Made by a program: the position numbers and the translations under genes. From Halovivax cerinus (GTDB lineage: Archaea; Halobacteriota; Halobacteria; Halobacteriales; Natrialbaceae), in NCBI RefSeq assembly GCF_024498195.1, contig NZ_CP101824.1:3100001-3164000 (forward strand): a stretch of DNA of 64,000 nucleotides, given 5' to 3'. Below are positions 17,520 through 51,125 of this stretch, one piece after another (position 1 is the first letter of the stretch; every line of letters starts with the position of its first letter). The notes under the pieces were generated by a model. That model made no database searches, had not been told where the DNA came from, and saw only the letters and a list, made by a program, of their open reading frames with translations.

Positions 17520-17753
17520 CGGGCACGATTTGAACGACGCCCAGAACAGCCCGCTTCGCTGCGCCGTTCTGGTCTACTTCAATCGCGGCGGCCGTCCCAC
17601 TCCTCACGTCCGTTCGTCGTGTAACCGGGCCGGGCGCGATTTGAACCGAAACCAGACGTTCCTGCTCGGGCCACTGGCCCTGCGCGGGCTGCGACTGGTA
17701 GGGCTCAAATCGCTGGTGACCGCTTTGCTCGTCACGTCCGTTCCTCGCAAAAG
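17520..17753 (-). repeat. Two degenerate copies of the tRNA-Lys 3' end with flanks
   Basis: The 20-mer formed by the acceptor 3' strand and T arm of tRNA-Lys (17755-17774) recurs perfectly at 17627-17646. It recurs with one mismatch over 16 bases at 17520-17535. A second shared block (cacgtccgttc) precedes the copies at 17627 and 17755. The segments are about 110-130 bp apart. No full tRNA can be folded from the two upstream copies. They look like old attachment-site duplicates or relics left at the tRNA gene by integrated elements. Confidence 0.65.
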
Positions 17754-17827
17754 CGGGCCGGGCGCGATTTGAACACGCGACCGTCTGATTAAGAGTCAGA
17801 CGCTCTGCCTAACTGAGCTACCGGCCC
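17754..17827 (-). tRNA. tRNA-Lys (anticodon CUU)
   Basis: On the minus strand a complete 74-base cloverleaf can be drawn. It has a 7-bp acceptor (GGGCCGG / CCGGCCC), D arm GCTC...GAGC, anticodon stem TCTGA/TCAGA with loop CTCTTAA (anticodon CTT, reads AAG), a five-base variable loop, and T arm GCGTG/CGCGC around TTCAAAT. The discriminator base is G. CCA is not encoded. There is no intron. Confidence 0.95.
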
Positions 17828-17961: not shown

Positions 17962-18120
17962 CTACCCTCGCAACTCCTGGACTTGCGCGAGCGAGAGCCA
18001 GCAGCCGCACGGACTCGCTGCGTGCGAGTGCGGTCCAGACGACGTGATACGGACGACTGGTCTGTCGCAGAGCGGACACAGCGGAAACGGACAGTCCGCC
18101 GGATCGGGGACGTCGCTCAT
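17962..18120 (-). CDS. Small zinc-finger protein (52 residues)
   Basis: A 52-residue micro-protein starting at ATG 18120. It carries CPLC near residue 15, and then HSHAASPCGC, so three to four cysteines plus two histidines could bind zinc. It aligns over its whole core with the C-terminal part of the upstream gene (CPxC-x-P-V-[IV], GP-x-[LS]-HAA-x-PCGC). Its start overlaps the stop of that gene (ATGA), which implies translational coupling. It belongs to the broad class of haloarchaeal small CPxCG-type zinc proteins, most of unknown function. Confidence 0.65.
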   Translation of the reverse strand: MSDVPDPADCPFPLCPLCDRPVVRITSSGPHSHAASPCGCWLSLAQVQELRG

Positions 18121-18476
18121 CGGTTCGCCCCGCCGAGCATGGACGCGACAGTGTCGGCCTCCAGCGGGCAGCCGCACGGGTCGGCGGCGTGGAGGTGCGG
18201 CCCGAGCGTCCGAATCGTGATCACGGGCTCGCTGCAATGTGGACAGTGCGGGTACTGCTCGCGCGGGACGACGCCGATGCGATTCGGGTCGACCGGTTTG
18301 TCGATCTCGACGCGGAGCGGGTCCTCGGGGGAACCGGTAGTGGCCGAGTGAATGCGTGGGAACGGGACGGAGTCGGAGCGCGGAGTGCTCGGACGGAGAA
18401 ACGCGTAGCTGGCCGTATCCTGCAGGTAGGCGGGCTGTGCGCGGGGTTTATGGTGGTCTGGTGTATAGCGTGTCAT
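18117..18476 (-). CDS. Zinc-finger protein paralogous to its downstream neighbour
   Basis: A 119-residue ORF from ATG 18476 (or 131 from 18512; no later ATG, GTG or TTG is in frame). The first ~70 residues are disordered. The C-terminal ~45 residues hold CPHCSEPV ... HLHAADPCGC, matching the next gene's motif. The two genes overlap by four bases, so they arose by tandem duplication and are probably co-translated. A folded sequence element (18486-18579) ends 10 bases before ATG 18476. The start is the uncertain part, because the N-terminal third overlaps that unusual region. Confidence 0.5.
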   Translation of the reverse strand: MTRYTPDHHKPRAQPAYLQDTASYAFLRPSTPRSDSVPFPRIHSATTGSPEDPLRVEIDKPVDPNRIGVVPREQYPHCPHCSEPVITIRTLGPHLHAADPCGCPLEADTVASMLGGANR

Positions 18477-18485
18477 GGCTTGCAA

Positions 18486-18579
18486 AACCCATCCTGTGGG
18501 TTCGGAAGCCACGTCTCGGGTGTCCTCAGCACCCGGGGCATTTCTGCCCGCTCTGGAGTTCCAGAGCCAGTGGCTTCCG
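18486..18579. ncRNA. Candidate structured RNA: five-helix multi-branched element
   Basis: A hairpin at 18486-18502 (6 bp) abuts a perfect 10-bp stem pairing 18503-18512 with 18570-18579. That stem closes a junction of three perfect hairpins at 18517-18535 (6 bp), 18536-18549 (5 bp) and 18551-18566 (6 bp). TATA-like boxes exist on both sides: 18603-18612 for the minus strand, predicting a start near 18582, and TTTATGG at 18447-18453 for the plus strand, predicting a start near 18475. The strand is therefore open. Possible identities are a cis-regulatory leader of the zinc-finger genes, a free small RNA, or the remnant 3' (omega-RNA) end of an IS1341-type tnpB. On the plus strand the element is also inside a 40-codon ORF (18475-18597). 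Confidence 0.45.
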
Positions 18580-18978
18580 CGTGAGAAGACGGCCTAGTGC
18601 ATATTATATTTATTGGATATTAGTTTGTTTTTGGAACAGGGAGTTTGTCACGGCGGCGTTTCCAGAAAGTTAGGATTCAGTGGCATTTCGTGGCGGTCCC
18701 GTAGACGACAGAGCCAGTTGGTTTGGACCGAGTTGGTTTGACCGGTCGATGACGGACCCGTGTCGCCACGCCGACGTTCCTCCGGGTCGACTCTCTCGAA
18801 ACGAGGAGGCGCGAGCGACCGCCACCGATTCCAGACATCGGGGCAGGCGCACCCAGTAGCCACGGTAGATCCGATAGGCGATCGGTACGGTCGAACGGCC
18901 GATACCGTTGCTAACGACCGATCCACCGTCTGTCACTCTCCGGGAGGGTTAAGTGGAGTGACCCCGACCACACGCCCA
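18580..18978. other. Spacer with an AT-rich island and the DHH gene promoter
   Basis: Bases 18597-18650 are strikingly AT-rich for this genome (atattatatttattgg, gtttgttttt) and hold TATA-like or T-rich terminator-like signals. The rest, to 18978, shows no convincing gene. GTTAAG at 18948-18953 is the likely TATA box for the TrkA_N-DHH gene, 26 bases before its ATG. Confidence 0.5.
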
Positions 18979-49220: not shown

Positions 49221-51125
49221 AGACGAGCGCTTGCCGATCTCTTCTCGCAGGATCTCGCTCACCTGATCGCCGTCGGCCTGGCCGCGAAGGGCACCCATGC
49301 ACTCGCCCATGAGGCCCGAGAAGGCCTGCATCCCCTCCTCTGAGACCTGCTCGGCGTTTCGCTCGACGACCTCGACGACGGCGTCTCTGACCGCGTCCTC
49401 GTCGGCACCGCCGAGGTCCTCGGCGTCGGCAGCCGCGACCGCCGTCCGGTCCGGGTCGGCGGCGAGTGCAGTGAGCAGTTCTGGAATCGCCTCGTTGGGG
49501 ATCTCCCCCTCGTCTGCCAGTGCGAGCGTGTCGGCGAGGTGACTGTCGGTGAGGACGTCGACGGCGACGTCGTCTCGGCGCAGTTCGGTCAGCGTCGACT
49601 CGAGGGTGCTCGCCGCGAGCGTGGGATCGACACCTTGCGTCGTCACTGACCCGTCTTCGGTCTCGACGCCCTCCTCGACGACGGATTCGAACAGCGGCAT
49701 GTACACACCGTAGGCGACCTGTTCGGCCAGACCAGCGTCGAGATCGTGTTCGGCCTGGTAGCGGTCGACCGTCGCCGTGAGCAGTTCCGGGACCGGAACG
49801 TCGCTCGGATCGGGTTCGACCGGCGGGACGTCGGTCTCGGGGTACATCCGCGCCGCGCCGGGGAGCGGCCGGAGGTAGCGCGTCGTTCCGTCCTCGTTCG
49901 CCCCGCGGGTCTCCTCGGGGACGCCCGAGATGGCGGTCTCGGCCCGCTCGGCCGCGGCCTCGATGGCACCCGGTGCGACGTCCTCCGTTGCGGCGACGAG
50001 TGCGACGGCGTCGTCCGCGTCGGCGTCGACCGCCGCTCTGAGTGACGCGACTTCGGTTTCGGTCACGCCGTAGGCCGGCAACTCGTCGGTGTGGAAGATG
50101 CCACCCGCGCCGTGGCGCTTCGCGTGATCGGACAGTTCGGTCCCGAGCCGACGATCGGAGGCGATCTCGCGGCCGACGAGTCCGTCGAAGCCGGCGAGTC
50201 GCACCGCGTACACGGCGCCGCCGTCGGTCAGGGCACCGGCGATCACGCCGCTGTCGGTGTCCTCGAAGACCGCAGTGACGTCCATCGGCTCGCCGACGGC
50301 CGCGTCGCGCGCGTCGAGTTCGGCCGCGATGTCGACGAGTTCGGCCTGTCGCTCGACTTCGGTACGAACGATGTCGTCGATGTCGTCCAGACTCTGGACG
50401 CCCTTGATCTCGACGCGAGCACCGGCCTCGATGGAGACGTTGACGTCCTGGCGAATCGTCCCCAGCCCGCGTTTGACCTTCCCCGTCGAGCGCAGCAACA
50501 TCCCGATTCGTTCGGCCGCCTCGCGGGTCTGTTCGGGCGTCCGCAGATCCGGCTTCGTCCCGATCTCGACCAGCGGGACGCCCAGCCGATCGAGGCTGTA
50601 CCGAACGCCATCGTCCGTCTCGGTGACGCGCTGGGCGCTCTCCTCTTCGAGCATCAGATCCTCGATGCCGACCGGTCCCGCGTCGGTCTCGATCTCGCCC
50701 TCGGTCGCGATCAGCGCCGATCGCTGAAAGCCCGCCGTGTTCGAGCCGTCGACGACGAGCTTTCGCATGACGTGGGCCTGATCCACCGGATCCATGTCGA
50801 GCAACTGAGCTATCTCGAGGACCGTCTCCAGCGCCTCGTCGTCGAGTCGGCGCGGCGGTTCGTCGTCCTCCTCGACGAGACAGGTCGAGTCGTACGCCAG
50901 GTACTCGAACTCGCGGTCGACGCGGCTCTCCTCCAGGGCCGCCTCGTCGATCTCACCGAGTTCACTCCGGGTCGGGTGGAGGTACCGGGTGAACCGACGC
51001 GTCGACTCCTCCGGTTCTCGGACCGTCGTCGGACAGGGACAGAACAGTTTCGTCTCGGTGTCGAGTTGCTGGTGGATCTCCAGACCAGCGACCAGCCCGA
51101 GGTCGGCGTAGTCGTCTTCGTCCAT
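49218..51125 (-). CDS. gatE: Glu-tRNA(Gln) amidotransferase subunit E
   Basis: With GatD it converts Glu-tRNA(Gln) to Gln-tRNA(Gln) in archaea. The 635-residue protein has the GatB/E cradle (GLVAGLEIHQQLDTETKLFCPCP, VDGSNTAGFQRSALIA, RLGVPLVEIGTKPDLRTPEQ, RQDVNVSIEAGARVEIKGVQ), an AspRS-like insertion (VTAVFEDTDSGVIAGAL to about 430) and the helical tail with a YqeY-type end (GLMGECMGALRGQADGDQVSEIL). ATG 51125 is the family start. Its stop codon lies in the IS605-like terminus. Confidence 0.95.
   Translation of the reverse strand: MDEDDYADLGLVAGLEIHQQLDTETKLFCPCPTTVREPEESTRRFTRYLHPTRSELGEIDEAALEESRVDREFEYLAYDSTCLVEEDDEPPRRLDDEALETVLEIAQLLDMDPVDQAHVMRKLVVDGSNTAGFQRSALIATEGEIETDAGPVGIEDLMLEEESAQRVTETDDGVRYSLDRLGVPLVEIGTKPDLRTPEQTREAAERIGMLLRSTGKVKRGLGTIRQDVNVSIEAGARVEIKGVQSLDDIDDIVRTEVERQAELVDIAAELDARDAAVGEPMDVTAVFEDTDSGVIAGALTDGGAVYAVRLAGFDGLVGREIASDRRLGTELSDHAKRHGAGGIFHTDELPAYGVTETEVASLRAAVDADADDAVALVAATEDVAPGAIEAAAERAETAISGVPEETRGANEDGTTRYLRPLPGAARMYPETDVPPVEPDPSDVPVPELLTATVDRYQAEHDLDAGLAEQVAYGVYMPLFESVVEEGVETEDGSVTTQGVDPTLAASTLESTLTELRRDDVAVDVLTDSHLADTLALADEGEIPNEAIPELLTALAADPDRTAVAAADAEDLGGADEDAVRDAVVEVVERNAEQVSEEGMQAFSGLMGECMGALRGQADGDQVSEILREEIGKRSS

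Follow-up and report, generated by a model that had tools for sequence, protein, structure and literature searches.

A candidate two-state leader RNA upstream of small zinc-finger-type genes in haloarchaea

A folded element at positions 18486–18579 of a 64,000-nucleotide stretch of the Halovivax cerinus genome (hereafter ‘the window’) very likely belongs to a cis-acting, two-state 5ʹ leader RNA, read from the minus strand, that controls translation of a small zinc-finger operon. One strand of its closing stem can pair either within the leader or with the bases at the start codon, and the preservation of both pairings through changes on three strands (33 versions) gives the RNA the appearance of a translational switch with two states. 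Dozens of copies in this genome, together with relatives across the haloarchaea, make it probable that the element represents a natural gene-switch class not described before. The original prediction, made from the window alone, included neither the alternative pairing of the start codon nor the pseudoknot, the family of ~31 copies or the dispersal of the cassette.

Fold, copies and covariation of the element

The original prediction described a perfectly paired five-helix fold of 33 base pairs, which chance could hardly produce. This fold was reproduced by minimum free energy (MFE) calculations for 18486–18579, which yield five helices with 36 pairs (7 + 10 + 7 + 5 + 7), slightly more than had been claimed. 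The plus-strand energy of -57.4 kcal/mol was equalled by none of 200 shuffled sequences (mean -31.9 kcal/mol; z -6.71), and that of the minus strand is -56.6 kcal/mol (z -6.82). The folded element is genuine, and the full unit exceeds this interval by a promoter (~18600–18614), a start-codon strand (18474–18483) and two open reading frames (ORFs).

On the minus strand, the order of parts is TATA box, P1 5ʹ strand, a variable part, S2, H2, P1 3ʹ strand, H1, GNAAGCC-AUG and ORF, such that P1 encloses a hairpin or a putative H-type pseudoknot plus a second hairpin. The TATA box of the window leader (AATAAATATAATATG, 18600–18614) lies ~24–29 nt before the start of P1, at the family-wide TATA position. 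It is followed by the P1 5ʹ strand (CGGAAGCCAC, 18570–18579), assigned by the covariation of P1, and the 5ʹ end of the RNA would fall at this strand or a few nucleotides upstream. Window-type copies then carry an extra hairpin (GCUCUGG/CCAGAGC, 18550–18567), in place of which most other copies have one strand of a pseudoknot stem. The S2 hairpin (GGGCAGAAAUGCCC, 18536–18549), which in most copies is the second stem of this putative pseudoknot, presents a conserved GAA in its loop (58 of 72 rows), and the adjacent H2 hairpin (CGGGUG...CACCCG, 18517–18535) is nearly invariant in the alignments. One copy (L068:2464-2632) has long extra hairpins inside the loop before the S2 3ʹ strand.

Beyond H2 lies the P1 3ʹ strand (GUGGCUUCCG, 18503–18512), for which two predicted conformers compete according to the swap test and folds described below. 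A hairpin found by folding (H1, 18486–18502) separates this strand from the start-codon strand (GCAAGCCAUG, 18474–18483; start codon at 18474–18476), whose partner in the predicted closed conformer is the P1 3ʹ strand. ORF1 (18117–18476) encodes a zinc-finger-type protein of 119 aa with a CPHC...PCGC pattern, and ORF2 (17962–18120) one of 52 aa with CPLC...PCGC; the ATG of ORF2 overlaps the ORF1 stop codon as ATGA. The first ORF of most Natrialbaceae copies is a leader peptide of 30–50 aa whose stop codon overlaps or adjoins the start of the zinc ORF. The window copy differs in that ORF1, which occupies the leader-ORF position, is itself of the zinc-finger type.

Searching the same genome at the DNA level alone revealed four near-full-length relatives (79–86% identity over ~185 bp) and some two dozen partial matches, and many more were obtained from congeners and other Natrialbaceae. 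Among the matches listed (at least 80 loci, with 5 bacterial ones left out) are Halovivax asiaticus, Natrinema, Natrialba, Halopiger, Halostagnicola and Haladaptatus. Read side by side, 28 copies from the H. cerinus genome exhibit a fixed core and covarying hairpins. A covariance model built from 9 Natrialbaceae copies (R1) identifies 31 copies in this genome at E <= 1e-7 and two more near 1e-3, and it matches 78 of 121 Natrialbaceae genomes (E <= 0.01), each of which carries 1 to 31 copies; these genomes represent 23 of 29 genera. Weaker matches in other families keep the whole layout with different stems.

A second model (R2), for which 48 sequences from several families were used, extends to the whole order the search for this fold that had originally been proposed. 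At E <= 0.001, relatives occur in 163 of 392 genomes, representing 58 of 95 genera and 11 families, and the other 229 genomes give no match. In a sample of the phylum, the 13 matching genomes (out of 294) all belong to the same order. The Rfam part of the proposed search returned nothing for the element: with Rfam 15, tRNA alone exceeds its gathering threshold in the window, where the best sub-threshold score is 15.2 bits vs 36.2 needed, and six other copies have no match within the element. An Rfam hit to DUF3800-VII (E 6.9), being below its cut-off, was taken as chance.

For these comparisons, parsing failed for 3 of 51 copies, which were dropped, a degenerate copy at 3249627 was excluded from later comparisons, and 4 of 40 loci (L076 and L078–L080) were removed as duplicates of L030, L022, L015 and L027. 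Two input sets, of 47 and 71 loci, consist of chosen representatives and are non-random.

Covariation was evaluated with alignments that were fitted to the P1/S2/H2 structure, and thus the pair counts lean towards that structure. In the Natrialbaceae alignment (88 rows), 96.7% of cells are paired and 9 of 21 pairs have changed on both sides (0 of 500 shuffles). For 48 sequences of mixed families, two-sided changes are seen at 17 of the 21 pairs of P1, S2 and H2, with 126 such cells vs 46.9 after shuffling, and for 72 sequences at 19 of 21 pairs, with 217 cells vs 61.3; neither value was reached in 500 shuffles, and slid controls were far lower for both sets. Compensatory base changes at homologous loci, whose lack, together with that of any transcript, was named at the outset as telling against the element, are present. 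The pseudoknot stem S1, which is missing in the window copy, is 84.5% paired, and its covariation score was matched by 14 of 500 shuffles. Taken across families, the alignments point to a conserved, aptamer-like fold that is supported by covariation.

Strand, promoter and alternative pairings

Among 84 family members, TATA letters are present at positions -30, -29, -28 and -27 before P1 in 77, 75, 77 and 79 cases, respectively. When read on the minus strand, P1 contains 49 G-U cells vs 1 A-C cell. The part enclosed by P1 folds better on the minus strand in 35 of 48 rows; for the stretch that runs from H1 up to the start codon, the plus strand gives the lower energy in 43 of 48 (mean -17.1 vs -15.0). 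Such strand asymmetries must be read cautiously because each helix has one conserved strand, and transitions opposite to it create wobbles on one reading only; the G-U signal of P1 could be explained in part by this transition bias. From the sequence comparisons as a whole, we assign the RNA to the minus strand and place the element in the 5ʹ leader of a gene, with a TATA box before P1 and a start codon after it. The original prediction had offered just such a leader ending shortly before the ATG of overlapping zinc-finger genes, and the order-wide covariation, the conserved promoter and the recurrent zinc-protein neighbour agree with it.

TATA-like boxes had also been predicted on both strands. 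Both are present, but only the minus-strand box upstream of P1 is promoter-like across the family, whereas the A/T-rich ‘box’ on the other side consists of codons of the leader ORF. This bears on a free plus-strand RNA, which the original prediction offered as an alternative. We initially favoured one as well, in the form of a small RNA that would start from the TTTATG/CTTTTTG box, point away from the zinc gene and be independent of it. The box is conserved ~28 nt before a plus-strand ATGG, and the better plus-strand folding between start codon and P1 would suit such a transcript. However, the box corresponds to codons K10/R11 of the leader ORF and is no part of the minus-strand architecture that other families keep. 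Because the plus side has no recurrent gene comparable to the zinc genes and the wobbles of P1 favour the minus strand 49 to 1, a plus-strand RNA is unsupported; we dropped it on the leader-ORF and P1 evidence and regard it as very unlikely.

The start codon used here for a Haladaptatus copy agrees with the NCBI annotation, in which a SWIM zinc-finger gene begins at locus position 1589. A coding test of the leader ORF gave a weak, mixed signal (entropy averaging 1.00, 0.98 and 1.12 at the three codon positions; K10 in 75 of 76), and therefore we do not claim that the leader peptide is functional. Codons 8–13 of the Natrialbaceae leader ORFs contain an inverted repeat (CGRGAC, an A/T centre, GTCYCG) that is perfect over at least 5 bp in 25 of 60 distinct rows, and its A/G and T/C letters covary in a manner that alters amino acids; it may be an operator or form a hairpin in the RNA. 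Outside the Natrialbaceae, three loci (L133, L137 and L288) carry inverted repeats between the TATA box and P1, for example TACCATGTACT..AGTACTTGGTA, which are possible operators.

The P1 3ʹ strand is complementary not only to its partner in P1 but also to the bases directly upstream of the start codon. Thus GGCUUCC can pair with GAAGCC-AUG, and equivalent pairings are formed by GGUCUUCC with GAAGACC-AUG in Haladaptatus, by GGUUGUC with GACAACC-AUG at L289 and by UGCUUCC with GAAAGC-AUG at L062. Because the register of the alternative helix shifts by one across families, we used a swap test instead of column-wise counts. For 33 distinct P1 3ʹ strands, pairing with the strand’s own pre-AUG segment gives -9.24 kcal/mol vs -6.52 kcal/mol with foreign segments, and pairing in its own P1 gives -16.36 vs -9.55 kcal/mol; in each case, none of 20000 permutations was as good. 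Two of 72 rows were excluded from this test for having no AUG, and an earlier version used 12 types. Within the Natrialbaceae, the alternative helix by itself has only one pair that changed on both sides.

Constrained folds of the window leader give -58.7 kcal/mol with P1 formed and -56.2 kcal/mol with the start codon hidden. Across 84 Natrialbaceae rows, P1 is favoured by a median of 4.65 kcal/mol, the two states lie within 5 kcal/mol of each other in 46, and the closed state pairs two or more AUG bases in 79. The wider set of 70 rows has a median gap of 6.0, and in 35 of these rows the closed state pairs two or more of the three AUG bases; in the remaining rows, the closed-state stem ends at or before the AUG. 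These comparisons support a mutually exclusive pairing of the kind expected for an expression platform.

Transcription of the leader and its switching, including the direction of the switch, would then proceed as follows. Transcription from the TATA box at ~18605 would begin near the point where P1 starts. With the switch open, P1 (GGAAGCCAC/GUGGCUUCC) would close a junction with H2 and the hairpin or pseudoknot, leaving the start codon free. In the closed state, the P1 3ʹ strand would leave its partner and pair across H1 with GNAAGCC-AUG, and the start codon would be covered or lie flush against the stem. A shared signal that stabilizes the P1 domain would thereby open translation of ORF1, and of ORF2 as well through the ATGA overlap.

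Two conformers so close in energy might also serve as a ligand-free RNA thermometer or ionic-strength sensor, and haloarchaeal hosts do live at variable salt. We consider this improbable, since the conserved, unpaired GAA and the near-invariant H2 exceed what melting alone would need.

Dispersal of the cassette

The whole cassette spans 17962–18636 on the minus strand. Homology among dispersed window-type cassettes ends at the second stop codon, that of ORF2, and just past the promoter, and no terminal repeats were seen at these limits. In four congeners, the tRNA-Lys gene and the gene beyond the cassette are directly adjacent with no cassette between them, at sites whose divergence obscures any target duplication. 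Comparison of the 31 H. cerinus copies with 24 copies in another genome (G002) found no pair with both flanks homologous and five with one, although only 1.5 kb of flank was available for G002.

Several further observations concern the surroundings of these copies. A piece of the tRNA-Lys gene, CGGGCRCGATTTGAAC, occurs as three direct repeats in the window (17520–17535, 17631–17646 and 17759–17774), and the four congeners carry tRNA pieces of 24–29 nt beside the same tRNA; the repeats look like scars of repeated integration at the tRNA. An identical 979-bp stretch lies directly beside two leader cassettes elsewhere in the genome (L047:1334-2312 and L061:2811-3789) and is probably a recent insertion or segmental copy. 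Elsewhere in the window, a tRNA-Arg (acg) reported by ARAGORN at 49672–49743 is below the Rfam tRNA cut-off and may be degenerate.

The original prediction also allowed that the element is a relic of the structured 3ʹ end of an IS1341-type tnpB gene (omega-RNA), and an IS200/605 end was considered along with it. The genome does contain five tnpB-type genes, and the copies of the element are dispersed. Yet R1 gives a significant match at only one of the five tnpB loci (L058), where the copy lies ~450 bp beyond the PF07282 domain and has its own zinc gene, and none of the five has an element overlapping or directly following the tnpB 3ʹ end. With 31 copies against 5 tnpB genes, this origin is extremely unlikely.

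The ~31 copies, the site that is empty in four congeners, the shortage of shared flanks between the two genomes and a near-identical tandem pair could instead reflect a selfish dispersed cassette, MITE-like or toxin–antitoxin-like, in which the RNA keeps a costly small protein silent pending a signal and host regulation is secondary. The tandem pair is formed by cassettes at L052:2446-2551 and L052:3589-3694 in the H. cerinus genome, ~1.14 kb apart and 96% identical over 447 bp, and neither has a zinc-type ORF by the motif used. We judge a selfish cassette unlikely: homology that stops at a stop codon, with no terminal repeats seen, speaks against it, as do the many families that carry single copies. 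Likewise, the phages and viral contigs searched contain no match to the element, and PADLOC returned no match for two Natrialbaceae zinc proteins and weak PDC-S62 matches for two SWIM proteins (0.00052 and 0.035).

Downstream genes, candidate signals and known systems

When the flanking proteins were compared all against all, the neighbours that recurred most were small proteins of the zinc-finger type encoded on the opposite strand, in clusters of 16 and 7 (the next has 5). A zinc-type ORF follows 34 of 36 sampled Natrialbaceae copies. With a wider Cys/His zinc motif, a downstream match is found in 80 of 87 Natrialbaceae rows (one of the 88 alignment rows being too short) and in 36 of 51 rows of other families (too-short or f1 rows excluded). 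On the antisense side the counts are 2 of 87 and 1 of 51, and 182 of 4000 stretches of random DNA match (4.6%). A stricter motif is present at 26 of 33 copies in the H. cerinus genome and misses one further SWIM protein (L268; PF04434, E 4.5e-6). At L292 and L295, the first ORF after the leader encodes a 101-aa protein without a zinc motif, and the one submitted to Pfam has no match.

The proteins behind the leader, judging from their sequences, are not one family. Of ten submitted to Pfam, four match SWIM, two of them above the cut-off, one marginally below and one weakly; the others have no match above the cut-off. Other families carry unrelated zinc proteins downstream, including SWIM and CxxC types. 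This diversity bears on the nature of the signal. Leaders of ribosomal-protein genes are bound by the encoded protein, which thereby autoregulates, and the same switch could be triggered in this way, by binding of the zinc-finger protein encoded downstream or of a single RNA-binding protein shared by the copies. We hold this to be a possible but not a favoured trigger. Small putative nucleic-acid-binding proteins follow the leader in nearly every Natrialbaceae copy, and ~31 paralogous RNAs and proteins coexist within one genome, as this trigger would suggest. However, the same RNA core also precedes unrelated SWIM proteins (PF04434, E 4.5e-6 and 4e-5), as well as CPxC...PCGC and CYRC...CCxxC types without Pfam matches. 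A shared signal is more economical, because otherwise each unrelated protein must separately recognize one RNA fold. Autoregulation by each protein is the main rival, and a translational switch that responds to a shared signal is the parsimonious reading.

A common ligand, rather than each protein, would then act on the leader. Tentatively, the element may be a haloarchaeal riboswitch class that senses zinc, another metal or a linked metabolite and opens translation of unrelated small zinc-binding proteins, on cassettes that relocate between species. Metal sensing had been raised as a possibility by the original prediction; naming zinc or another metal as the signal is our boldest guess, prompted by the kind of genes controlled.

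Several known RNAs offer parallels. SAM-II and preQ1 riboswitches form an H-type pseudoknot with a short L1 and an A-rich L3 and hide the translation start by alternative pairing, and the present RNA, with its putative pseudoknot and predicted start-codon pairing, would resemble them in these respects; unlike them, its contested stem is the long P1, the region covered is that of the start codon rather than the Shine-Dalgarno sequence, and its signal is a putative ligand. The fluoride (crcB) riboswitch is likewise a compact, pseudoknot-type RNA, and the two have in common their archaeal 5ʹ leader location and presumed translational control. The element differs from it in having no Rfam match above threshold, in its associated genes and in its many copies per genome. 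Orphan riboswitch candidates such as yjdF, in the partial descriptions covered here, are also linked to genes without assigned functions, whereas the present class is order-wide in haloarchaea, precedes unrelated zinc-type genes and sits on dispersed cassettes.

A literature search of partial coverage found no description of this RNA. Passages of a 2021 paper name the fluoride riboswitch as the only natural archaeal riboswitch to be experimentally determined (PMC8241225), and those of a 2016 start-site study describe structured-leader control as atypical in haloarchaea (PMC4983044). The passages of PMC2864571 that were examined yielded no entry on haloarchaea or zinc. Haloferax C(P)XCG zinc-finger micro-proteins, which like those studied here are small haloarchaeal CPxC-type proteins, appear in passages of another paper that describe no structured leader (PMC11241148).

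A bistable leader found in 163 of 392 genomes of the order, with up to ~31 copies in a genome, would make natural RNA switching testable in genetically tractable haloarchaea. Since the leader is common to unrelated zinc proteins, it may also provide a common handle on many small proteins whose functions are unassigned.
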